64,000 nt of DNA, taken from positions 80,056-144,055 of IMG/VR virus record IMGVR_UViG_3300031950_000001. One strand, given 5' to 3'. Under the pieces are notes generated by a model. It saw only the letters and a list, made by a program, of their open reading frames with translations. It was not told the origin of the DNA and did no database searches. The translations under genes were made by a program, and so were the position numbers. The DNA comes from a virus. This document shows, piece by piece, positions 2,029 through 63,330 of this stretch. Position 1 is the first letter of the stretch, and each line of letters starts with the position of its first letter.

Positions 2029-2702
2029 TCGTTAAGCTAGAAGGCGTGCTCAAATATCGCGATCAGATCACATTTGATCGCGTAATCGCTAATCTGTTTG
2101 AATATGGGTTTTTTGATCCCGTCGAGCAATCGATTTCATCCTATGGCGAACCCATCGGCGCTGTATTTGATCGAGTTATCGTCCTCCCCTATGCGACGTA
2201 TGCGACATTGTTGAGCGATGCACTATGTGAGGAATGGTTTGCGCCAACATATCGAAGCTGGTTGTTGCGGATCGATCATCGTGGCGGCGATTTTCTAGCA
2301 GACGGACGTGTGGACGAGATACGGTTTCTCGGCAGTAAGGATTGGTTCAAACCCGTACTGCGTCGTGCCGATGTTCCTGAATTCGTGCAACCGTCCTATG
2401 ATCGCGTTGTACGATGTCTGGCCGCATTGCGGCATATTTGGGAAAAGTCCGATGGCCGCGGATGCGCGAGGCCTCCGTACGAACTGACCTGCGAAGATGA
2501 GCCGGTTTTGAGTCGCGTCAACCATGCTCCCGGCATCCATCGTAACGATGTAATTCTTATGGAGTACTTCCGATGCTTAATGCATGTTAAATATCGTGAT
2601 ATTATTGCACCTACAGAAAAGTGGCTTCGTCGAGGTTGCCGATTACGGGCAAAGCGGTTGAAAACGATAGCGGACCCGCGGTCGAAAGGAGACTCTCCGT
2701 GA
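2025..2702 (+). CDS. Paralogue 3 of the four-member family
   Basis: A 225-residue paralogue. I place the start at GTG 2025 (VIVKLEGVLKY), which overlaps the upstream stop as GTGA and has CAGGAG upstream. A longer frame opening at 1944 only reads through the previous gene. It has the family blocks YGEPIGAVFDRVIVLPY, VPEFVQPSYDRV and HVKYRDIIAPTEKWLRRG. Its own stop again overlaps the next GTG start, so the tandem copies are probably translationally coupled. Function is unknown. Confidence 0.78.
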   Translation: MIVKLEGVLKYRDQITFDRVIANLFEYGFFDPVEQSISSYGEPIGAVFDRVIVLPYATYATLLSDALCEEWFAPTYRSWLLRIDHRGGDFLADGRVDEIRFLGSKDWFKPVLRRADVPEFVQPSYDRVVRCLAALRHIWEKSDGRGCARPPYELTCEDEPVLSRVNHAPGIHRNDVILMEYFRCLMHVKYRDIIAPTEKWLRRGCRLRAKRLKTIADPRSKGDSP

Positions 2703-3574
2703 GTGAGCTGCTTTTTTATCTCGAAGAATACATAAAACAAAATGGTCGGACAAAAATAGCGGAGCTAGCACGACTATTTGGGATTGGCAGGTCAATTGTC
2801 AGAAAATACATCAGAACATCGACCATTCTCGATATTTCGGGCCCATATGCCGTATTGAGGCGGACCGTTGGGAGCGAATACGGCGAAGTCACTCCGGATG
2901 ATCTTATTACTATTCGGAAGTACGATGTACCGACGCCCGAAGAGATCGAATGCCGCAAACAGACTATTCTTGACTGTATTGATGATTCGCTTCAAACACC
3001 GTTTATTCTCGAACGTCCGGATGAGTTTACAAATCTTATTCAGGCGGTCATCGAATTCTTTACTTCATTAACAGACGAGCGGGCTAGCAGCCTTGCGATG
3101 CAGATACGTTCCGATCTTTGCGAGGAAAGGGACGAGCACAAGCTTTATAAGATCTACATCTATATCTATAGTCGCCAGTCCAGATCAATAAAGGGCTGGG
3201 CGGCATTTATCGTAAACCGAAATAATCTCATGCACGCCATGAGTGGTTGCATGCTTCGCGTATCGGTTCTTCACATGTATCTCAATATTCTTGCACGAAT
3301 TCTCCGATTTGTTAAACCTTTCTCAGCCATTCAGATTGTATCGGACAAGCGAAGTATCGATACGTTGCGGCGGAGCCTCAATACCGATCATCGCATGTCC
3401 CTAAGCGAGCGATACGCTCGAAAGAAGTTGCTGTCGCTACTATCTTCATATACTATTAGCTTTGGCATTGCCGATGATGAGATACTCCAAAATTGCCGAA
3501 ATATGGCGATTAAGGCAAGGGAGGACCTTTGTTTGTTAGGAGTTGGTAATGGCCGTGTATCGCGTTTATTGTAG
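2699..3574 (+). CDS. Protein with N-terminal helix-turn-helix
   Basis: A 291-residue protein read from GTG 2699, which overlaps the upstream stop; CGAAAGGAGACTC is the ribosome site. Residues about 18-45 (RTKIAELARLFGIGRSIVRKYI) resemble the helix-turn-helix used by small winged-helix regulators. The remainder is largely helical with no motif I recognise. Its position directly after the paralogue family suggests a regulator co-transcribed with them, but that is inference. Confidence 0.6.
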   Translation: MSELLFYLEEYIKQNGRTKIAELARLFGIGRSIVRKYIRTSTILDISGPYAVLRRTVGSEYGEVTPDDLITIRKYDVPTPEEIECRKQTILDCIDDSLQTPFILERPDEFTNLIQAVIEFFTSLTDERASSLAMQIRSDLCEERDEHKLYKIYIYIYSRQSRSIKGWAAFIVNRNNLMHAMSGCMLRVSVLHMYLNILARILRFVKPFSAIQIVSDKRSIDTLRRSLNTDHRMSLSERYARKKLLSLLSSYTISFGIADDEILQNCRNMAIKAREDLCLLGVGNGRVSRLL

Positions 3575-3902
3575 GGAGGGGCGCTACAAAGCCGTTCCGA
3601 TACGTCGGATCGACTTTCGGGCGCTTTTGTTAGGCCCGATATGGCTCGTACTCCAACGAGCTTATCTTGAAGCCTTAGCGACATTCCTCTTGCTAATTGG
3701 ACTGTGGGGCTGTGGACTCCCTCTATTTGTGGCGATTATCGTGGTGAATATGCTAGTAAGTTACATTAATTTGGTCGTCCTTGATTCCCGGTTGCAGCGA
3801 TCGGGATGGGACTACATAAGCTCAGTAGAGGCTAAAGATCCGCATACGGCGATAAAGTTGGTTTTGGACCCGTTTTTGTCTTTGAAGAAAGGAGTGAAAT
3901 GA
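3549..3902 (+). CDS. Small membrane protein, DUF2628-like
   Basis: A 117-residue protein with a hydrophobic centre (about residues 30-75) forming two or three membrane segments. The pattern FRALLLGPIWLVLQRAYLEALATFLLL matches the GP(F/I)W-L-xxRxxxEA signature of DUF2628 membrane proteins; function in that family is unknown. The ATG at 3549 follows TAGGAG and lies inside the end of the upstream gene. Its stop overlaps the next start. A role at the host membrane is possible but unsupported. Confidence 0.6.
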   Translation: MAVYRVYCREGRYKAVPIRRIDFRALLLGPIWLVLQRAYLEALATFLLLIGLWGCGLPLFVAIIVVNMLVSYINLVVLDSRLQRSGWDYISSVEAKDPHTAIKLVLDPFLSLKKGVK

Positions 3903-4237
3903 TGTTTGATGACGATCAAGTCCACGATGATTTCGATCAACAGCCAGAGCAGCCAAGTTATGATGAGTTGTCAAAACACATTGTCTTGCCTTCGAAGGTA
4001 GTAGGCGTTTTTGTGGTACCGACTCCAGGAACGTTTAAACTATCGATTTTGTGCATCCCCGAAAATGCCAAGCTCGAAGACGTAGGCAAGACGGAGCCCG
4101 CGGTACATGTCGTACTTTCGCTGCAGGACGTGGAAGCGCTGCTCCAGATGCTAAAAGACGGACTCGAAAGAGTCAAACTAGAACAAAAGGCACGATCGGC
4201 AGCGAATTATGGCCGTGAGCTGTTCGGACTGAGTTAG
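3899..4237 (+). CDS. Small acidic cytoplasmic protein
   Basis: A 112-residue protein with an Asp/Gln-rich N-terminus (MMFDDDQVHDDFDQQPEQP), a central beta-like segment and a C-terminal helix rich in Glu and Lys. No family recognised. It starts at ATGATG overlapping the previous TGA, after AAAGGAGTG. It is the last gene before a dispersed palindrome and a GC-rich hairpin, so it probably ends this transcription unit. Confidence 0.55.
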   Translation: MMFDDDQVHDDFDQQPEQPSYDELSKHIVLPSKVVGVFVVPTPGTFKLSILCIPENAKLEDVGKTEPAVHVVLSLQDVEALLQMLKDGLERVKLEQKARSAANYGRELFGLS

Positions 4238-4275
4238 CCAGGCCAAAAAACCCTACTTGTAGGGGGTAGGCTTAT

Positions 4276-4301
4276 AAAATTTGATTCCGGAATCAAATTT
4301 T
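4276..4301. repeat. Dispersed palindrome, copy 1
   Basis: A perfect 26-bp palindrome extending the shared core TTTGATTCCGGAATCAAA by AAAA/TTTT. It lies 38 bp after the stop of the small acidic protein and before the protease gene. Confidence 0.9.
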
Positions 4302-4351
4302 GGCTTGTCCGTTTTGAAAAAATCTGTTAAATTGATTTAACAAACCTCCTA

Positions 4352-4402
4352 CCTGCCCGCCCCGCGGAGCACCGCAGAACACAATCCTGCGGGGCGGGCA
4401 GG
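4352..4402 (+). promoter_or_regulatory. GC-rich hairpin upstream of the protease gene
   Basis: Arms CCTGCCCGCCCCGC and GCGGGGCGGGCAGG form a perfect 14-bp stem with a 23-nt loop. GTTTAATC follows rather than a clean U-tract. It could be a terminator or a leader structure for the protease whose ATG is at 4441. Confidence 0.6.
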
Positions 4403-4440
4403 GTTTAATCGTCCGTCCTATAACGAAAGGAGAAGGAGAA

Positions 4441-4706
4441 ATGAAGTATCGTGCAATTGTGTCGGGTCTAATGGTTCTGTCGGTTTTGGCTGTTTCGTCG
4501 CTGCGAGCGGCTGATGTTCCGCCCGATATCGAGAAGAAGCATGTCCAAATGCTCTATCCAGTCGTCCGCGTGACGGTCAAGAACGCTGGCGGCTCTGGGA
4601 CAATTCTCTATAGCGAAGATCGTGGAGATGGCTGTCAGACCTACGTTTTGACGAACTATCACGTTATCGAGGGAGCCATTAATATCGTTACCGAGTGGTC
4701 TTCGCT
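4441..4706 (+). pseudogene. Secreted trypsin-like protease, 5' part (split by IS607)
   Basis: The first 88 codons of a serine protease. There is a Sec signal peptide (about residues 1-24, ending LRAADV) and the chymotrypsin-fold block GGSGTIL followed by TNYHVI, whose His74 is the catalytic histidine. Translation then runs into an inserted element at 4707 and stops at 4770. Removing 4707-6750 rejoins the frame exactly to the 3' part, giving about 297 residues, so the insertion is recent. The start follows GAAAGGAGAAGGAGAA. An exported phage protease could act on host envelope or surface proteins; the target is unknown. Confidence 0.85.
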
Positions 4707-45199: not shown

Positions 45200-45440
45200 G
45201 ATTAAGCGTATTGAGCAGTCCCAAGATGGTATTACGACCAAAGAATTAGCCAACAAGCTTGGCGTTTCCGAAGCGACTGCTCTACGAAGGATACGGGAGC
45301 TACACGCGAGAGGCCTTATAAAAATCGGGTTTCGTCGCGCGGCAAATATTCTCGGCAATCCTACGTTTGTGCCCGTCTACACGCTCAGTGCCAAGGCGTC
45401 TCCGACTAAAAATACAAGAAGAAGGGCAAAATCAACATGA
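45159..45440 (+). CDS. Small winged-helix DNA-binding protein
   Basis: A 93-residue protein: DELLREIKRIEQSQDGITTK, then ELANKLGVSEATALRRIREL, a typical winged helix-turn-helix as in MarR or Lrp-type regulators. A basic C-terminus (KNTRRRAKST) follows. It overlaps the genes on both sides. As the clearest DNA-binding regulator in the window it is a candidate reader of the dispersed palindrome, which is pure inference. Confidence 0.72.
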   Translation: MSRSQITVDELLREIKRIEQSQDGITTKELANKLGVSEATALRRIRELHARGLIKIGFRRAANILGNPTFVPVYTLSAKASPTKNTRRRAKST

Positions 45441-46042
45441 CTATCGTCGAATCGATCCTTAAGATAATGCTTGCTATCCTTAGGATAGTATTTGGCGTAA
45501 TCGCTCTTATTGCGAACTATATTTATCAAGGAGCGAAATACATGGTCGAGAAGCATCCCGAATTCACTCTCGGTTTTATCGTGGCGTCGGCTTTATTTAT
45601 TGTCGTAATCCTTCTGACAACAAGCTGCGGACCGGGTGGGGGTGACAATGCTGTTGCCAAGGAATATTATGCGGATGCAATAAGGGCTCTGAACGGCAGA
45701 ACAATCATTATAAAAGCGCGTATTCTTGCGCGAAGTCGTGTCTATCTCAGCGGCGTAGAGACGCCTTTAGAGGACGCTCCATTTGGATCCGAAGCTCGTC
45801 AGACATTAAATCGGTTAGTTGCCGGGCAACGTATCTTTGTAAAGCAGATGAAGGGCGATCCTGACAACAGCGGCATCGTTTGGAATGAGTACGGCCAGTG
45901 CGTCCAACAGCAGCTTGTCAAAGACGGATTGGCCCGATGCACGGGTAAACTATGGCGAGCGGAAGAGGACGAGGCAAAACGTAATAAACGGGGTATATGG
46001 AGCGTTAAAAACGTCGAAGAGCTGTTTGAGGCTAAAAACTAA
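45437..46042 (+). CDS. Membrane-anchored thermonuclease (SNase-like)
   Basis: A 201-residue protein. Residues about 10-60 hold hydrophobic segments (MLAILRIVFGVIALIANYIY and LGFIVASALFIVVILLTTSC). The rest is a staphylococcal-nuclease fold: RVYLSGVETPLEDAPFGSEA, VAGQRIFVKQMKG, DPDNSGIVWNEYGQCVQQQL and DEAKRNKRGIWS. The Asp/Glu and Arg positions of the active site look partly kept. It could degrade incoming DNA at the membrane or act on host DNA. ATG 45437 overlaps the wHTH stop; a terminator follows. Confidence 0.75.
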   Translation: MTIVESILKIMLAILRIVFGVIALIANYIYQGAKYMVEKHPEFTLGFIVASALFIVVILLTTSCGPGGGDNAVAKEYYADAIRALNGRTIIIKARILARSRVYLSGVETPLEDAPFGSEARQTLNRLVAGQRIFVKQMKGDPDNSGIVWNEYGQCVQQQLVKDGLARCTGKLWRAEEDEAKRNKRGIWSVKNVEELFEAKN

Positions 46043-46119: not shown

Positions 46120-46185
46120 GGGCCGGACCGGACGTTGAGGCGGGTTTTGAGCCCGTCGAAGTGGGTTCGACTCCCACCCGGCCTG
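46120..46185 (+). tRNA. tRNA-Gln(TTG)-like gene with shortened D arm
   Basis: Acceptor strands GGGCCGG and CCGGCCT pair (one G-U). The anticodon arm GCGGG-TTTTGAG-CCCGT gives anticodon TTG, and the T arm is GTGGG-TTCGACT-CCCAC. Only about 13 nt lie between acceptor and anticodon stems, too few for a normal D arm. CCA is not encoded and a T-tract follows. It may be a tRNA mimic or a decayed tRNA. Confidence 0.55.
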
Positions 46186-46272: not shown

Positions 46273-46929
46273 ATGATGGATTGGGCAAGTTGGGACGATG
46301 TCATCCGCTGGGCGTTCAGCCCAGCAACCAATGTTGAGGAACTCCAGGAGGCCCTCGAAGCGGCCTCCCTAGAAGAGTTCGAGACCCGGGAACCGAAAGC
46401 GGTTTCCGAAGAGGCCAAACGGGCGGCGTACCAACTAGCGGTGGCGCTGGGTCGATGCCGGGCGTTTGGGGTCCTTGTCCCCGTGGACATAGATGGCACC
46501 TTACATCCGCAGGTAGCCATCGCCGCGGCGGAGATAGGAGAAACTTTCCTTCGACAATGGATCGAGCGCGCGGAACAATTGGGTGTCCGGTGGGTCCACG
46601 CCGAACCGGAATTGGCCGAAACAATGGGCGCCGAGTTATTAGAAGCCCGAATGGAAGCCCTCTTCGTTCTGGAGGCTCTTTCCGAAGCGCAAGATGCGAG
46701 CTGGAACGAGCCGGCTTCCGCAGAACTCGGGGATGCAGTGAATCGATACGTTGATGCGCTCGAGGCCTTCGACAAGGCCCTGCAGACCCCGGGAACCATC
46801 GGGCTGCTCTCTACCGCGGTTCACCTGCCGCTTTTGGAGAATTGGCGGCAGAGTTTAGCCGGCCATTACAAGGAGGTTTTGCCCTGGTGGCTGGACGGAA
46901 CGCTGGAGAGAGCGATCCAGCAAAATTAA
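46273..46929 (+). CDS. Unrecognised GC-rich cargo protein
   Basis: A 218-residue acidic, helical protein rich in Ala, Glu and Leu (MDWASWDDVIRWAFSPATNV). Base composition is visibly richer in G+C than its neighbours, suggesting recent acquisition. It has its own leader structure upstream and its own terminator downstream, so it is an independent moron-like unit. ATG 46273 follows GTGGAGATGTT. No family recognised; being next to an RT/RNA array, a defence or counter-defence role is conceivable. Confidence 0.65.
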   Translation: MMDWASWDDVIRWAFSPATNVEELQEALEAASLEEFETREPKAVSEEAKRAAYQLAVALGRCRAFGVLVPVDIDGTLHPQVAIAAAEIGETFLRQWIERAEQLGVRWVHAEPELAETMGAELLEARMEALFVLEALSEAQDASWNEPASAELGDAVNRYVDALEAFDKALQTPGTIGLLSTAVHLPLLENWRQSLAGHYKEVLPWWLDGTLERAIQQN

Positions 46930-46998: not shown

Positions 46999-47016
46999 TT
47001 TGATTCCGGAATCAAA
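46999..47016. repeat. Dispersed palindrome, copy 10
   Basis: The 18-bp core with A-rich flanks, 10 bp before the first RNA unit of the array. Confidence 0.88.
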
Positions 47017-47026
47017 AATGCTACCG

Positions 47027-47185
47027 GACAAGACGGCCGTTGTGCGCTACCTCTGATAGGGGGGTCGTATTCGACCTTCTCTATTGGAGGTTAAAAAAGC
47101 AGGGGCCTTTTTTTGGGCCTGCGTGTCGAACGGCGCCCATTTCATGTGGCCCATTCGACCCGCCGCCGACAACGGCCGTCTTGTT
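47027..47185 (+). ncRNA. Array RNA unit 1 (retron-like msr-msd candidate)
   Basis: The closing stem is GACAAGACGGCCGTTGT (47027-47043) with ACAACGGCCGTCTTGT (47169-47184), then CTTTTTT. Inside, hairpin A is ACCTC/GAGGT with a GTCG-TATT-CGAC tip. Hairpin B is GCAGG/CCTGC around GGCC/GGCC-like pairs. A shorter stem C is GTCGAA/TTCGAC. The block GCCGCCG precedes the 3' arm. In retrons such terminal complementary arms (a1/a2) flank the msr and msd parts. Confidence 0.7.
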
Positions 47186-47214
47186 CTTTTTTCCTGTTTA
47201 TGCGAAAATGCGCG

Positions 47215-47389
47215 GACAAGACGGCCGTTGTGCGCTACCTCTGATAGGGGGGTCGTATTCGGCTTTCTCTATTGGAGGTTTAAAAGTCGGCCCTTGGGCT
47301 CGACTGGCGAAGGCGCTATGTCACGTGCTCCCTTTGGACGCACGTTCCTTGCGCCTCTTCGTACAGCCGCCGACAACGGCCGTCTTGTT
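47215..47389 (+). ncRNA. Array RNA unit 2
   Basis: Same closing stem (47215-47231 with 47373-47388), followed by CTTTTTTT. Hairpin A is nearly identical to unit 1, with CGAC changed to CGGC (G-U kept). Hairpin B is GTCGGCCC/GGGCTCGAC. Stem C is longer: GCGAAG..GCGC pairs with GCGC..CTTCGT, with an inner ACGTGC/GCACGT helix. CAGCCGCCG precedes the 3' arm. Confidence 0.7.
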
Positions 47390-47404
47390 CTTTTTTTCCT
47401 GTTT

Positions 47405-47657
47405 TATGCGTATTTTCTAATCGAAACAGAAAAAATACACGACGGCCGTTGTGCGCTGCCTCTGATAGGGACCGTACTCGGATTCCCTATTGGAGGCTAA
47501 AGTTGGCCTTCGGGCTTTGTCTGGCGATGTGTGCTCATTACACGTGAAACATTCCATGCTTTCGCATTCCATGTTTAGCACGTTCCATTCGACACCTCGC
47601 CAGCCGCCGACAACGGCCGTCTTGTATTTTTTCTGTTTCGATTAGAAAATACGCATA
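47405..47657 (+). ncRNA. Array RNA unit 3, with a 48-bp closing stem
   Basis: The arms at 47405-47452 and 47610-47657 are reverse complements over 48 bases with one mismatch. The usual GACGGCCGTTGT arm is thus extended outward by a 31-base perfect match. Hairpin A shows paired changes relative to units 1 and 2 (GCCTC/GAGGC; ACCG/CGG). Hairpin B is GGCC-TTCG-GGCT. Stem C begins CTGGCGA/TCGCCAG and carries the longest variable loop. Confidence 0.7.
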
Positions 47658-47814
47658 GACAAGACGGCTGCCTGTACGTGTCCTCTGAATGGACGGACCA
47701 TTCGCCAATCTGTTTTAGAGCTTAACGAAAGATTAGATTCAGCAAAAAGTAAGTGGCGATTGCGTTCCGCCAATCGACCACAACCATTTGCTTCACGACA
47801 GCAGCCGTCCTGTC
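47658..47814 (+). ncRNA. Array RNA unit 4, divergent
   Basis: Arms GACAAGACGGCTGCCTGT (47658) and ACAGCAGCCGTCCTGTC (47798) still pair although both differ from the other units. CCTCTGA is kept after the 5' arm. The inner structure is otherwise different: GAATGG-ACGGA-CCATTC and GTGGCGATTG/CAATCGACCAC hairpins. No T-tract follows; a CACGC/GCGTG hairpin does. Confidence 0.62.
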
Positions 47815-47846
47815 CACGCTCTGCGTGCAAGATAGGATAAAGCGCG

Positions 47847-48027
47847 GACAAGACGGCCGTTGTGCGTTGCCTCTGATAGGGGGTCGTATTCGGCTTTCTC
47901 TATTGGGGGTTGAAAGTTGGCCCTTGGGCTCGACTGGCGAACGTCGCATGTCACGTGCTTCCGTTAACTTTCCCGACGCACGTTCCATGCGCCTCTTCGT
48001 CCAGCCGCCGACAACGGCCGTCTTGTC
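47847..48027 (+). ncRNA. Array RNA unit 5, adjacent to the RT gene
   Basis: A perfect 17-bp closing stem (47847-47863 with 48011-48027), then CCTTTTTTT. Hairpin A is GCCTC/GGGGT with GTCG-TATT-CGGC. Hairpin B is GTTGGCCC/GGGCTCGAC. Stem C is CTGGCGAA/TTCGTCCAG with GCATG/CATGC and ACGTGC/GCACGT inside. It ends 40 nt before the reverse transcriptase start. Confidence 0.72.
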
Positions 48028-48067
48028 CCTTTTTTTATCGATTTTTGTTGCCTTCGGGAGGTGAGTG

Positions 48068-49015
48068 ATGGGCAAAGTTTATGAGCTTGGCGAGCGGGTG
48101 GTTATCGCCCGAGACCTAAATTGTCGACTGAAATATTTTAAACTGCCGCCAGGCAAGGTCTATCGGAAAGAGATCAAAAAGCCGGATGGACGAGTTCGGC
48201 TGATTTTTGTTCCCGACAAGAAGCAGAGGAAAATCTTGCGGAAGATTGCCAGGCTTCTTACGTCGAATTATCATTGGTTTATTGTCAACCGATACGACTG
48301 GCGGGATACAACGGTCCAACCGTGGCCCGTATTCGGTTTTCGACGAGGCGGTAACGTTGTTGACGCAGTATTGCCGCATTGCGGTAAGCGTTTTACGCTG
48401 TCCGTCGATATCGTTGATTTCTTTCATAACTGTTACTTGCTGGATGCCGAATCAGCCTATATGCGTAATGTGGGCCGACATCGGAATCTAAAAAGAAAAT
48501 GCAATTTTTCCGCACTGGCGTTCGATTTTGTCCGTGATCAGTTTGTATGGCCTTTCGATGCCCAGGCGAAGCCAGTCGGGCGGTTGCCCCAAGGTTTTCC
48601 AACAAGCCCTATATTATCCAACTTTGCCTTCTATCAATATGATATTGATATCTTAGAATGGTGCGGACATAACGACGTTATTTATACGCGTTATGCGGAT
48701 GATTTGTGTTTCTCATTCGACAAGCCGGAAATGGTCGACCGTGTATTGCACCTCTTGAAAAGGCTGCCTCCGCATTTTGAGTTATGCAAGATCAAACTTC
48801 AGGACGCAGCGCAAGGCAGAAAACGACTCCTTGGTCTTATGGTCGATAAAAACGGTTGTTACTTGCCGAGAAAAAAGCGACGACTATTGCGACTTTTGCT
48901 AAAGATTAATCCGGACTCGGCTCAGACGAAAGGGCTTTTGGCATGGAAGAAGTTCATTGACCGGAAAATGAACGAGTGGGTTGTCGAAGCGCACAAGCTT
49001 CTGGGAGGGTTGTAA
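48068..49015 (+). CDS. Retron-like reverse transcriptase
   Basis: 315 residues from ATG 48068 after GGGAGGT. RT motifs are in order: KPDGRVRLIFVPD (about 38-50), GFRRGG (90-95), SVDIVDFF with Asp114, LPQGFPTSPILSNF (173-186), YADDLCFS (209-216) and KRLLGLMVDKNG (252-262). Length and motif 4 match retron RTs. The hallmark NAxxH is degenerate (DAVLPH, 99-104) and VTG reads LLG (254-256). LPQGxPTSP argues against a diversity-generating RT. With five a1/a2-flanked RNA units upstream it probably copies one or more of them into multicopy single-stranded DNA. Confidence 0.85.
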   Translation: MGKVYELGERVVIARDLNCRLKYFKLPPGKVYRKEIKKPDGRVRLIFVPDKKQRKILRKIARLLTSNYHWFIVNRYDWRDTTVQPWPVFGFRRGGNVVDAVLPHCGKRFTLSVDIVDFFHNCYLLDAESAYMRNVGRHRNLKRKCNFSALAFDFVRDQFVWPFDAQAKPVGRLPQGFPTSPILSNFAFYQYDIDILEWCGHNDVIYTRYADDLCFSFDKPEMVDRVLHLLKRLPPHFELCKIKLQDAAQGRKRLLGLMVDKNGCYLPRKKRRLLRLLLKINPDSAQTKGLLAWKKFIDRKMNEWVVEAHKLLGGL

Positions 49016-49354
49016 ATGGAGCTTCTGCTGTACCAGCACACAAAGCTGACGCTGGAAAAGCCGCCAATCATCATTTCGACGCGGCAATTCACACCATCAC
49101 GGGTAAAGCTCATATTCCATCTACCTCGATCCGTACAGCTTATCCTACCAGGCGCCCATGTCGTCGATAATCGAAAGGACGATCCTAATGCATTTCATAC
49201 GGTTACCACGCTACGCAAGATAGGCGATACGATTCAAATCCGCCACGACGATAAGACGTATAGTCTTACCGTCATTAGGATGGTAAAGCAGGTTCCGTCG
49301 AATTCGCCCGAAGCGGCTCAGTCGAATTTTGTCGTCCTTTCGTTGGAGGAGTAG
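49016..49354 (+). CDS. Unrecognised small protein directly after the RT
   Basis: A 112-residue, beta-rich basic protein (LLLYQHTKLTLEKPPIIIST). Its ATG follows the RT stop with no spacing (TAAATG) and GGGAGG lies just upstream, so the two are coupled. Many retrons have an effector or accessory protein next to the RT, and this is the best candidate here. No catalytic motif or membrane segment is visible. It is also close to the MoxR gene (6 nt). Confidence 0.65.
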   Translation: MELLLYQHTKLTLEKPPIIISTRQFTPSRVKLIFHLPRSVQLILPGAHVVDNRKDDPNAFHTVTTLRKIGDTIQIRHDDKTYSLTVIRMVKQVPSNSPEAAQSNFVVLSLEE

Positions 49355-49360
49355 TGAGTT

Positions 49361-50476
49361 ATGTTCGATTCGGTCCCGTTCGTCGTAATGCAGTCTGGCG
49401 TTCCCATTTATCTGTCTGGTCCGGCTGGTAGCGGCAAGACGACTTCGATCGAGCTTGTTGCAAAACGGCTGAATCGCAAATGCTATTGCGCCATCGTCCA
49501 TCAAGGCGATCCTATCGAAGTTACGGGATTGCCTTACATCGACGTCAAAGCCGGCGTTATGAAATATACGCCACCCGAATGGGTAAAGGTGGCAAACGCC
49601 GAGCCGTCGATCATCTTCTTTGATGAGGCGTCTGGGCTGGATGAATCTTATCAGCTTCGGATGCTGACGATTCTGTCTCATCGACGAGTTGGCGCCTATT
49701 CCATCCCGGATCACACCTGGTTCGTCCTTGCCGGGAACCCGATCGAAAGCGGCACCAGCGCGTCCCTCTTCTCAATTCCATTTATTACGCGTCTCTGCTG
49801 CTTCGACTGGCAGCCCGATGACAATCTCTGGATGAACCATATGCTCACGGCAGATATGAGCTTCGATGTTGAGATTCCTGATATTCCAGTGCTGCCGAAT
49901 AATTGGACGAACTATCTTCCGGAAACCGGAAGCTATATCAATGCATTCCTAAAGACTTCACGTAACTTCGTCAGCTTCTCGGAAAAGGAGCTCAAAGGGC
50001 TGACGAATAGTCCCGTACCCACTCGTCGGAGTTGGGATTTGGCTCGTCGAGCGTTCGCAGCAGTTAAGGCCGTGAATATGGCTTCGCAGGAAAACATCTT
50101 CCGCGTTGTAAGCGGCTGCGTTGGTAGGCCGGCTGCTGGGGCGTTCTGCGAATATATTAGCAAGCTCGATCTACCGGATTCAAAAGAACTGATCCAAAAC
50201 GCCGCCCGCGGCATGGAGGTTCTGAAACGCTTCCGGTTGGACCAGATTTATATTATCGTAAGTTCCGCTTGTATCGCCGTGGATCTTAATGATCCGGTCG
50301 AACGAAGGGGAATCTTCAATATTATTAACGAGCTCTACAACAATGGTCAGGCCGAATTCTCGGCGCTTATGATCCATTTGTTGACGAAACGAGAACCTCA
50401 GCTCGAACTTCCGCCGGAACTCGTATCTCGGCTGATGCCGCTGGCGTCTAAGATTCGGGCTGCAAAGGGCAACTAA
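49361..50476 (+). CDS. MoxR-type AAA+ ATPase
   Basis: 371 residues with Walker A YLSGPAGSGKTTSI (about residues 17-30), Walker B IIFFDEASGL and a sensor LAGNPIESG. MoxR ATPases work with von Willebrand A proteins to remodel or load metals into partner proteins; the next gene encodes exactly such a protein. ATG 49361 follows GGAGGAGTAGTGAGTT. It may belong to the same transcript as the RT. Confidence 0.85.
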   Translation: MFDSVPFVVMQSGVPIYLSGPAGSGKTTSIELVAKRLNRKCYCAIVHQGDPIEVTGLPYIDVKAGVMKYTPPEWVKVANAEPSIIFFDEASGLDESYQLRMLTILSHRRVGAYSIPDHTWFVLAGNPIESGTSASLFSIPFITRLCCFDWQPDDNLWMNHMLTADMSFDVEIPDIPVLPNNWTNYLPETGSYINAFLKTSRNFVSFSEKELKGLTNSPVPTRRSWDLARRAFAAVKAVNMASQENIFRVVSGCVGRPAAGAFCEYISKLDLPDSKELIQNAARGMEVLKRFRLDQIYIIVSSACIAVDLNDPVERRGIFNIINELYNNGQAEFSALMIHLLTKREPQLELPPELVSRLMPLASKIRAAKGN

Positions 50477-54239: not shown

Positions 54240-54313
54240 GGGCCCGTAGCTCGGCGGCAAGAGCAGGGGACTCATAATTCCCTTGGTCGCAGGTTCGAAT
54301 CCTGCCGGGCCTA
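54240..54313 (+). tRNA. tRNA with CAT anticodon (Met or Ile2)
   Basis: Acceptor GGGCCCG/CGGGCCT, D arm GCTC-GGCGGCAA-GAGC, anticodon arm GGGGA-CTCATAA-TTCCC, T arm GCAGG-TTCGAAT-CCTGC. All arms pair well. The loop gives CAT. The sequence alone does not separate elongator Met from Ile2. CCA is not encoded; TATTTTTTAG follows. Confidence 0.92.
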
Positions 54314-60100: not shown

Positions 60101-61354
60101 ATGGGTCGTTATGCGATGTTAGGGTTTCCGCCGCTAGATCCTGCAATATGCGCACTTAGCGCAAGCAGCAGTTCTAGTTCATCGTCGAGTTGTGAATACC
60201 CGTACTGCATTTATGTGGATGGAGAGATCACGCCTAATACGGCCATTGGCGAGTACTTCCAGTATGACGGGTTCTACAACGGCAGGCCGCAATGGAAAAT
60301 CGCTTCGGATATCGAATGGTATATCCGTTGGTATGGCTTGGGCTGGATCATTGGCTTGTGGCCTACTGGTGGCCGCGGCGAGCCCAACATATACTGGCTG
60401 AATCCGGAGGGTGATGGGCCGCTCGGCCAATACACTGTCAATAGCGGCACGGAGGGAACGGCGATTGCCCGTGAGTGCGCGGAATCCATCAGTAGCAGTT
60501 CTAGTGCATGCGGTTGTGGAGGTGTAACTACAACTCTTTATGCCCTTGAAAATGTGCCGACCGTGGAAAATGGTTGCCTAAAGTTTACAATTGTCGCGCT
60601 CGAGTTTCAGAATGGTTGTTTATGCCATTGGGACGTGGTGGACGAGGTGAGGGCTAAAATTTGTGACACATCCTCAAGCAGTTCTAGTGAAAGTAGCTCT
60701 GAATCCAGCAGTGAGAGCAGTTCAGGGTCCAGCTCGGAGAGCAGCTCCGAATCCAGCTCTGAATCCAGATCGGAATCCAGCTCCGAATCGAGTTCGGAGT
60801 CGAGGTCAGAGTCCGGCTCAGAGCGTAGCTCTGAATCCAGTTCTGAGTCGCGTTCGGAATCCGGCAGCGAGAGTCGCTCTGAATCCAGTTCTGAAAGCCG
60901 TTTGGAGAGTGGCTCGGAATCGAGCAGTGAAAGTCGGTCCGAATCCAGCAATGAGAGCAGTGGATGCAATGGTCGCGATTGCTTGAACTGTCTCAACGGG
61001 AAAGCTCCTGCACAATTTCAGGTAACAATCTCAGGAGTACGCAATAATTCCTGCTCGGACTGCACCGTATTCAATGGAACTTTTGTGGTACAGCAGGATC
61101 CGCGATTTCCATGTACGTATCGGGCTGCTTTGCCATACGCTTGCCACACAGACTTTAACGAAGTGGTGGTAGAAATATTCGACACAGGAGTGGAGGTTCG
61201 CTTGCTGGTCTGGGGTGAACCAGAAGCCCAATGGGGGCGCGAAGGCTCTGCTCCGCCCTGTTGTTCTTTAGATGAAATGCTTCCTCGCTGGTACGGCTCG
61301 AATATCGGTTTTTGCGATACTCGACAAGCTACCTGCCATATTAAAAGCCTATGA
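60101..61354 (+). CDS. Cys-rich surface protein with Ser-rich linkers
   Basis: A 417-residue protein. A first Ser run (SASSSSSSSSSCEYP, about residues 20-34) leads to a domain with several Trp and Tyr. A second short Ser run separates a small Cys-containing domain. About residues 190-290 are almost only Ser, Glu and Arg. The C-terminal domain has paired Cys (NGRDCLNCLNGKAP, NNSCSDCTVFNGT, CCSL). This looks like an extended fibre or spike with disulphide or metal-bound ends on flexible stalks. ATG 60101 follows AAAAGGGCTGG weakly. The stop overlaps the next gene. Confidence 0.65.
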   Translation: MGRYAMLGFPPLDPAICALSASSSSSSSSSCEYPYCIYVDGEITPNTAIGEYFQYDGFYNGRPQWKIASDIEWYIRWYGLGWIIGLWPTGGRGEPNIYWLNPEGDGPLGQYTVNSGTEGTAIARECAESISSSSSACGCGGVTTTLYALENVPTVENGCLKFTIVALEFQNGCLCHWDVVDEVRAKICDTSSSSSSESSSESSSESSSGSSSESSSESSSESRSESSSESSSESRSESGSERSSESSSESRSESGSESRSESSSESRLESGSESSSESRSESSNESSGCNGRDCLNCLNGKAPAQFQVTISGVRNNSCSDCTVFNGTFVVQQDPRFPCTYRAALPYACHTDFNEVVVEIFDTGVEVRLLVWGEPEAQWGREGSAPPCCSLDEMLPRWYGSNIGFCDTRQATCHIKSL

Positions 61355-63330
61355 GAGAAATGATGTACCAACCTTGCGACTTGGAACACGTAGGTGATTG
61401 CCGATGGCAATGCCGTCGATGCGGTCGATCGGTAGTTACGTTTCGTCGGGCCGATGGAACAGAAGCTCCCCCTCCGCTAGACAGCATGCCGCCATGCGGC
61501 TGGGCGACGACCGTTTGGGAAACGAAAGGCCATTATTGGGTAGAACAGGCCCCGCCGATTGGCGTTCCGTCGCCCGAACGGAAGTTCCGTTGCCAACGGT
61601 GCGGCCAAGTCCTTTCGCTCCCGCCGACGTCGGATGCTCAGACCCTCTTGGCCCAGCAACCCCCTTGCCCGGCCCAGCCCAGCCCGCCGCCTGAGCAACA
61701 GGTGGCCGCGTCGAATGGCGCGCCAGATCAACCGCCAGACCTGCTCCAGAGGGCGTGGCGTTATTCCAAGGCCCTAGCCGGGTGGATTGCCGAAGGGCGG
61801 CCTACACGGTCTACAGAAGAAATTGAGCGGCTATTGGCCATTTGCCGAGCCTGTCCCCATTACGACGCAAAAGCCGAAATCTGTCGGGTATGTGGTTGCC
61901 GGGTTACTACGGCAAAAGAAGCCTGGCGTAACAAACTGGCGATGGCCACCGAGGCCTGTCCTCTGAAAAAATGGGGGATAAAGCTCTCCCCGGAGGAGAT
62001 TAAAAACTTCGTGGAACGAGTCTACGTGATTAACCTCAAAACCCGCCCGGATCGCCTAAAAACTTTCCTGGACCGGCTGGAGCAGTACGGTTGGCCATTT
62101 CCCGATCCGATCATCTACCCAGCCATCGATGGCAACAAGGTAGGCGTACCGCCGGAGTTTACCCAAGGCGGCGGCGCCTATGGTTGCCGCATGAGTCATC
62201 TGCGCATCCTCCAAGATTGCCTCATGGAGGATGTAAAAACCGTTCTGATTCTCGAAGACGACGCCGAAATCACCGAAGGCTTCACAGACCGGGTAGCCGA
62301 ATTCTTGGCCAAGGTCCCCCAGGATTGGGAAGGCATTATGCTGGGCGGCCAGCACCATACCTCTCCGAAAGAGACTGGCATTCCCGGCGTGGTCCGGGTC
62401 CAGTATGCCCAACGGACCCATGCCTATATCGCCCGGCCAAGTTACATGAAAGCCCTTCAGCAGCGGTGGGGCAATTGCACCGTCCATATCGACTGGGCCA
62501 TGAAAGACTGGCAGCATACCCGAATTGTGTATGCTCCTGATCCCTGGCTCATTGGGCAAGCCGGAGGGCGATCCGACATCCGGGGCGCCGTAAAACCCAG
62601 GGAATGGTGGTCATCGGCAGCCCCACCTGCCCCCAGTACCAGCAAACTTCCGCCTGGACCGAAACCGGTGATTCTTTTGCGGGCAAGCCGTCCAGTTGCC
62701 GAACAGCTTCAGCGGTTCGGCTGGCATGGCGGATATAGCCGGGATCGACAAACCGGCTACGACAGCGGCCTAAAAGACATTGCCCGGCAATCCAAAGAAG
62801 TAAGACCCCGCCGTCTCCGGGAGTGGATTCAATTGGTCGGTCGTGAAGCCGACGACGCCTACGCCCTCTGTACCATTTGGCACCCAGAAATCACCATCGA
62901 AGATGTTCGGGCTGCCCATTCGGGTCCAATCCTGGAAATCCAGGTCGAACAGGACAACGTCGAAGCCGCCGTGGAAGCAGCGTTCGATCAGCTGCCATCC
63001 GAGTGGCGGGAATACTTGGAAACTAACCCGGCTCCCAATCAACCGCCGGTGGTCTTGCTCAACGCCCCGGAGGAAACGGCCCACGAGCTCCAGGAGAAAC
63101 ATCGCTGGCTTTGCGCCCGGCTTCCCGAACCGCTTCCCGAAGCCAATCAACTTCAGCGTTGGATCGCCCGACTCCGCCGACAGGCCGCCCAAGAGGGCAA
63201 AGCCCTTGCCCTTTACGGCCTATCCGTGTTCGATCTACCCCCCTTAAAAATCCCCACCGAACCCATCACCGCCCATACGGCAGAAGAAGCCATGGGACAG
63301 TTCTTAATGGAAGGGAAAAACTATGGTTAA
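61351..63330 (+). CDS. Glycosyltransferase family 25-like protein with zinc-finger front
   Basis: 659 residues. CDLEHVGDCRWQCRRCGR and FRCQRCGQVL are repeated Cys motifs at the N-terminus. CRACPHYDAKAEICRVCGCR is a further cluster near residues 168-190. From about 225, VYVINLKTRPDRLKTFLDRL, GAYGCRMSHLRILQDC and VLILEDDAEIT match GT25 enzymes. The last 220 residues are an added domain. The gene is GC-richer than the phage core and may be acquired. It could glycosylate virion proteins, host surface or DNA. Confidence 0.78.
   Translation: MREMMYQPCDLEHVGDCRWQCRRCGRSVVTFRRADGTEAPPPLDSMPPCGWATTVWETKGHYWVEQAPPIGVPSPERKFRCQRCGQVLSLPPTSDAQTLLAQQPPCPAQPSPPPEQQVAASNGAPDQPPDLLQRAWRYSKALAGWIAEGRPTRSTEEIERLLAICRACPHYDAKAEICRVCGCRVTTAKEAWRNKLAMATEACPLKKWGIKLSPEEIKNFVERVYVINLKTRPDRLKTFLDRLEQYGWPFPDPIIYPAIDGNKVGVPPEFTQGGGAYGCRMSHLRILQDCLMEDVKTVLILEDDAEITEGFTDRVAEFLAKVPQDWEGIMLGGQHHTSPKETGIPGVVRVQYAQRTHAYIARPSYMKALQQRWGNCTVHIDWAMKDWQHTRIVYAPDPWLIGQAGGRSDIRGAVKPREWWSSAAPPAPSTSKLPPGPKPVILLRASRPVAEQLQRFGWHGGYSRDRQTGYDSGLKDIARQSKEVRPRRLREWIQLVGREADDAYALCTIWHPEITIEDVRAAHSGPILEIQVEQDNVEAAVEAAFDQLPSEWREYLETNPAPNQPPVVLLNAPEETAHELQEKHRWLCARLPEPLPEANQLQRWIARLRRQAAQEGKALALYGLSVFDLPPLKIPTEPITAHTAEEAMGQFLMEGKNYG

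Follow-up and report, generated by a model that had tools for sequence, protein, structure and literature searches.

The stretch of DNA analyzed in this work (the window; 64,000 nt, bases 80056-144055 of a 144-kb virus record) probably carries a phage-encoded retron-like system, in which one reverse transcriptase (RT) serves an array of msr-msd-like RNAs; this reading is inferred from sequence, as there are no msDNA or transcript data for it. A preliminary description had placed five structured units bounded by complementary arms head to tail ahead of the RT gene, and this arrangement was borne out, with the units at 47026-48028 and the RT at 48068-49015, all on the plus strand. Unit 1 (47026-47186) has its a1 arm at 47026-47043, a candidate branch G at 47044, and its a2 arm at 47169-47186, and it contains hairpins A and B and stem C. 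Unit 2 (47214-47390) has a1 at 47214-47231, a candidate branch G at 47232, and a2 at 47373-47390, and unit 3 (47403-47659) has extended arms around a core at 47436-47627, with a candidate branch G at 47453. The arms of unit 4 (47657-47818) have diverged and still pair (GACAAGACGGCTGC with GCAGCCGTCCTGTC), and an A (47676) occupies the branch position. Finally, unit 5 (47846-48028) has a1 at 47846-47863, a candidate branch G at 47864, and a2 at 48011-48028, and its end is separated from the start of the RT by 39 nt. The arms measure 18, 18, 50, 14, and 18 bp in units 1-5, respectively. Hairpin A, hairpin B, the variable stem C, and the constant 3' block are all present as described earlier; before the 3' arm, units 2, 3, and 5 end with AGCCGCCG and unit 1 with CGCCGCCG. 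A T-run follows close behind the a2 arm in units 1, 2, 3, and 5 and is absent behind unit 4.

Five units were observed, compared with 0.3 in shuffled copies of the region, and 111 other 1100-nt stretches of the window contained 0-2 units when arms of at least 11 bp were accepted and at most one when the minimum was raised to 14 bp. The predicted fold of unit 1 (MFE -94.2, z -9.2) lies far below that of shuffled sequences, the fold of unit 5 reaches z -6.6 against shuffles, and both folds contain stem C, an msd-type hairpin before a2. The a1 arm and hairpin A are 84-97% identical among units 1, 2, 3, and 5, while stem C is only 54-83% identical, with many large indels. Unit 4 is the diverged member (50-55% identity), in which the base after the arm has changed from G to A. 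A covariance model built from the five units found exactly those five in the 144-kb record, with unit 4 scoring 100.7 bits; the hits on the minus strand correspond to these units too, as expected from arms that are inverted repeats, and the arms of the units also match one another because a palindromic core, ACGGCCGT, is common to four of them. The compensated change from ACCTC paired with GAGGT to GCCTC paired with GAGGC, put forward earlier as evidence for RNA structure, proved real (columns 25/67, AU twice and GC in unit 3), and a double change in at least one unit was observed at 8 of the 49 consensus pairs. These eight pairs alone are modest evidence, since only five related sequences are available, and the folding z-scores add to it. 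No match to the units was found in Rfam, which is uninformative since an Eco1-type viral locus (L068) is missed there as well.

The same locus is present in a second phage, L011, a 135.5-kb contig that was reached via its MoxR gene. The gene order in the window is SNase-array-RT-small ORF-MoxR-VWA. A staphylococcal-nuclease-like gene (SNase; 45437-46042) lies upstream of the array, with a 218-aa ORF (46273-46929) between the two, and a pair of genes for a MoxR-type ATPase and a VWA-domain protein starts at 49361, downstream of the 112-aa small ORF. In L011, the order is likewise nuclease, about 1.08 kb of non-coding DNA, RT, small ORF, MoxR, and VWA, with identities to the window of 54% for the RT, 41% for the small ORF, and 73% for MoxR. 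The non-coding stretch of L011 has no DNA match to the window array. However, the covariance model matched one L011 unit (26.1 bits, E 1.6e-4), so the link between the unit model and a related RT, whose absence would have refuted the preliminary description, does exist. By direct inspection, a whole array of four to five units was found at the same place, consisting of unit a (3701-3841), unit b (inner arms 3983-4076, outer arms 3956-4096), unit c (4094-4255), unit e (4473-4655), and an element d without the junction (about 4308-4403). The arms of units a, b, c, and e are unrelated to each other and to those of the window, yet each pairs with its partner, which indicates that the layout of the array is retained despite sequence turnover. 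It is very unlikely that the repeats function at the DNA level, whether by forming cruciforms, as sites of replication or recombination, or as mobile repeats that are decaying next to an ordinary RT. The arms are indeed near-perfect inverted repeats, and four units have the ACGGCCGT core in common, but the inner hairpins are conserved and carry double changes, no copies exist elsewhere in the 144-kb record, and four unrelated arm sequences in the L011 units would not be allowed for a DNA-binding site. A coding function of the array was also rejected, because its overlapping 126- and 138-aa ORFs (TTG starts) are not kept in L011. Exact-peptide scans for the RT in viral contigs and bacterial genomes returned only L011, as did the DFFHNC pattern, and the RT lineage is represented by two genomes only in the collections searched. 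A search of viral contigs with a 19-mer arm pattern gave nine matches, all without a 3' arm and resembling one protein-coding family, and these were dismissed as chance.

The branch G that follows a1 usually stands in an AGC context, and the base before it is usually A or C. In the array, the G directly after a1 is present in four of the five window units and in four L011 units, the base before it is T, and its context is TGC and not AGC. In retrons, the a1/a2 arms comprise 8-30 bases, the branching G is the base directly 3' of a1, and the msd hairpin is approximately 10-50 bp long (PMC6868368). The arms of 14-18 bp (50 in unit 3) and the position of the ncRNAs upstream of the RT meet the a1/a2 criterion. 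Reading inward from the arms, window units 1, 2, 3, and 5 and L011 units a, b, c, and e all have the junction T/GC...CG/A (slashes mark the arm ends), in which a2 is preceded by CG. Among 3228 background pairs of 8-bp arms with similar spacing, GC...CG occurred in 39 and T/GC...CG/A in 5 (0.15%). The presence of this junction in eight units means that, of all features of these RNAs, the expected priming place is retained most consistently. The same procedure applied to viral Eco1-type loci (L064, L068, L069, L083, and L094) gave TGCGCACCCTTA/GC...CG/TAAGGGTGCGCA or near variants, that is, CCTTA/GC...CG/TAAGG, and two more loci (L055 and L087) gave GC...CG too. The Eco1 5' part has an exact match in 48 E. 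coli genomes. Unit 4, with A at the branch position, may be dead or primed otherwise.

The RT (315 aa, 48068-49015) most likely starts at the ATG at 48068, behind GGGAGGTGAG, with an alternative GTG start at 48065. The motifs LPQGFPTSP and YADD, named in the preliminary description, are present. In PADLOC, the best models for this protein are all retron RTs, and in NCBIfam it scored 109 bits with retron_St85_RT versus 36 with group II introns and 34 with Drt2. The first value is below the NCBIfam cut-off of its family (235), and the other two fall short of cut-offs of 300 and 390, so the requirements for a maturase-type RT and for the DRT2 / DRT9 family are not met. The AlphaFold2 model (pLDDT 84.5, pTM 0.85) was obtained from a 38-sequence run, which replaced a poor two-sequence run (pLDDT 47), and it predicts a complete RT fold with the catalytic YADD. 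This fold is closest to those of retron-Ec86, Eco7, and Eco2, with 7v9x as the best Foldseek match; ranks 1-15 in the PDB are all retron RTs (Ec86, E 2.7e-15), whereas DRT2 appears at rank 16 and a group II RT at rank 18. In the tree, the window and L011 RTs group together (99) within an 11-member group of viral RTs (100), among viral retron-like RTs and separate from group II introns and DGR, and the DGR control sequence clusters with the group II introns. The exact neighbor of the RT is unsure because of long branches and a quick tree. No near-copy of the array that could form a DGR TR/VR pair was found in the rest of the window. Profiles and the modeled fold agree in pointing to a retron-type RT, and placement in a non-retron clade that never uses flanking RNAs, which would have counted against the preliminary description, is opposed by PADLOC, NCBIfam, fold, and tree alike.

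The strict retron motifs are nevertheless not intact. The region X motif NAXXH reads AVLPH in the window and AAIPH in L011, with H kept and N lost, and in region Y only the G of VTG is kept (LLG and ILG, respectively). Among 16 validated retrons, NAXXH is found in 14, with both outliers also changed at N, and VTG deviates in two, by one residue each (PMC6868368). The retron character claimed earlier thus stands by profile, fold, and tree but not by NAXXH and VTG, so we term the RT retron-like without claiming every textbook criterion. The RT is very unlikely to employ a non-retron mechanism on the units, such as the rolling-circle concatemers of DRT2, the protein-primed homopolymer of DRT9, or self-priming. 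Retron-like profiles do overlap DRT2 (34 bits; fold rank 16), which likewise has a neighboring ncRNA (PMC12039810), but profile and fold clearly prefer retrons and the unit architecture is that of msr-msd. An improbable but not negligible alternative is that the units escape reverse transcription and serve regulation as structured RNAs (in attenuation, or as an RNA sponge or scaffold) to which the RT or some other phage protein binds. The T-run directly behind a2 in four of the five units could act in transcription, msDNA is unproven, and the altered NAXXH and VTG would fit such a role; the catalytic YADD and the complete RT fold speak against it, and the Eco1-type junction, placed precisely where the arm ends in eight units from the two phages, matches the requirements of a priming site and would be pointless in a regulatory hairpin.

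A small protein coupled to the RT was also part of the preliminary description, and the 112-aa ORF (49016-49354, plus strand) does begin at the base right after the RT stop codon. Its function is unknown, and it had no match in PADLOC, Pfam, NCBIfam, or the PDB. No known retron effector adjoins the RT, and this ORF is the sole coupled gene. In front of the array lies an 18-bp palindrome, TTTGATTCCGGAATCAAA (46999-47016, no strand assigned), a probable phage promoter or operator element that ends 9 nt upstream of unit 1 and is likely the transcription start of the array. The record contains 33 copies, one of them with a single change, while the reversed-pattern control gave 0. The copies are mostly located just 5' of ORFs, and one lies 6 nt before the tRNA-Met at 54240; the 13 further copies in the window are at 4280, 8283, 14183, 16886, 21248, 29256, 29312, 33420, 39702, 53678, 54216, 58275, and 58331. 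In the related record, TTTGACTCCGGAGTCAAA occurs 30 times, with one symmetric base pair altered throughout the set, as if the palindromes had co-evolved with a phage regulator. Between the SNase-like gene and the 218-aa ORF, a tRNA-like element (46120-46185) scored 29.2 bits with the Rfam tRNA model, just at the cut-off, and was missed by ARAGORN; it resembles a tRNA with a shortened D-arm and the anticodon is probably TTG. The record carries genes for terminase, DNA polymerase I, a DnaB-like helicase, DNA ligase, and baseplate proteins. A tyrosine integrase was searched for and not found in the phage, which makes a lytic phage likely without proving it. The protein encoded at 61351-63330 has weak matches to phage glucosyltransferase families and is possibly a DNA or surface modification gene product.

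We hypothesize that transcription of the array starts from the palindrome at 46999, with the T-runs behind units 1, 2, 3, and 5 as possible 3' ends, and that each unit folds independently. The RT would bind the conserved 5' (msr-like) hairpin, so the msr that it binds is expected in the a1 arm and hairpin A. DNA synthesis would be primed by the 2'-OH of the G that follows a1, at the conserved C that lies two bases upstream of a2, and copying of the variable stem would produce four, or possibly five, distinct RNA-linked single-stranded DNAs in each infected cell; these msDNAs would have the RNA end in common and differ in the DNA hairpin. One RT and a constant RNA handle that give different DNA products is the simplest reading, although RNA-linked DNA has not been shown. 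A natural array would supply a family of paired RNAs from which the features recognized by the RT (constant part) and those altered by selection (variable DNA part) could be learned. On a more speculative level, because the RNA and RT-binding part is constant while the DNA part is diversified and evolves fast, the msDNAs most likely act on outside targets. They are most likely decoys or competitors in phage-host conflict, which is more speculative, as the purpose is only inferred; the decoy or sensor functions proposed in the preliminary description remain inference as well. Speculatively, counter-defense is the purpose that we would name first, without granting it an even chance, and a role in shutting out rival phages, for which the small ORF would supply the effector, is somewhat less probable, on a par with all other purposes together. 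The phage setting raises the testable idea of msDNA directed against host or competitor systems.

Of 79 other viral retron-like RTs, most adjoin no unit or a single one. In three viral contigs, the RT is preceded by repeated structured RNAs of a different kind, which lack the long a1/a2 arms and whose link to the RT is not established. In the first (L039, 101 kb), about 1 kb of non-coding DNA (2988-3976) 5' of a retron-like RT contains three CTAGGTAG hairpins, each followed by a variable stem. In L080 (94 kb), the stretch directly 5' of a type XIII-like retron RT (2443-3340 is the stretch) holds ten GGAAAGGTAGGC-type elements separated by differing hairpins, which is perhaps another multi-RNA RT system; matches to its motif in L116 and L118 lay within repetitive DNA without an RT and were rejected. 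In L030 (90 kb), two 46-nt repeats (3625-3807), each followed by a different hairpin, lie directly 5' of a short retron-like RT. Separately, contig L031 has a 70-nt direct repeat (3162-3231 and 3528-3597, 99% identical) 5' of a retron-like RT. It is conceivable, though we would sooner doubt than assert it, that multi-template retrons are a distinct viral strategy, in which one retron-type RT makes changing msDNA sets from an array as decoys, competitors, or sensors against hosts and rival phages, and that more than one viral RT lineage acquired such arrays (the lineage of the window and L011, and possibly those of L039, L080, and L030).

The usual description of a retron comprises a single RT with one ncRNA and one effector. 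Retron-Eco1 (Ec86, type II-A) resembles the phage system in the msr-msd upstream of the RT, the a1/a2 duplex, the junction a1/GC...CG/a2 (in Eco1, its G is the branching base), the approximately 145 nt between the arms, and the RT fold. On the other hand, it has one ncRNA and not five, arms of 12 bp and not 14-50 bp, and a known effector where none is known here, and it belongs to bacterial or prophage defense, whereas the array sits within core genes of a large phage in which no integrase was detected. Most retron RTs have NAXXH and VTG intact, and in the phage RT both are altered. The best-scoring RT profiles (96-109 bits) are those of retron type III-A, Ec107-like, and St85 RTs in PADLOC and NCBIfam, but the phage RT is below the curated NCBIfam cut-off and no matching effector genes adjoin it. 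The antiviral RTs DRT2 and DRT9 are similar in combining an RT with a neighboring structured ncRNA, and they differ in lacking the a1/a2 branch-G architecture and in being more distant by profile and fold. No natural retron with several ncRNAs was found in the literature searched, only engineered arrays, and since coverage was partial this is weak evidence of absence; within these limits, a natural multi-template array is new relative to known retrons. Engineered retron arrays were made by man for multi-site editing (Gonzalez-Delgado et al., 2024, cited in PMC12405507 and PMC12548924). As far as the accessible part of that literature describes them, they likewise provide several templates per retron system, whereas the phage array is natural and conserved in two phages. 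It would mean that a single RT can be supplied with several templates in nature as well, a setup that until now engineers have constructed by hand.
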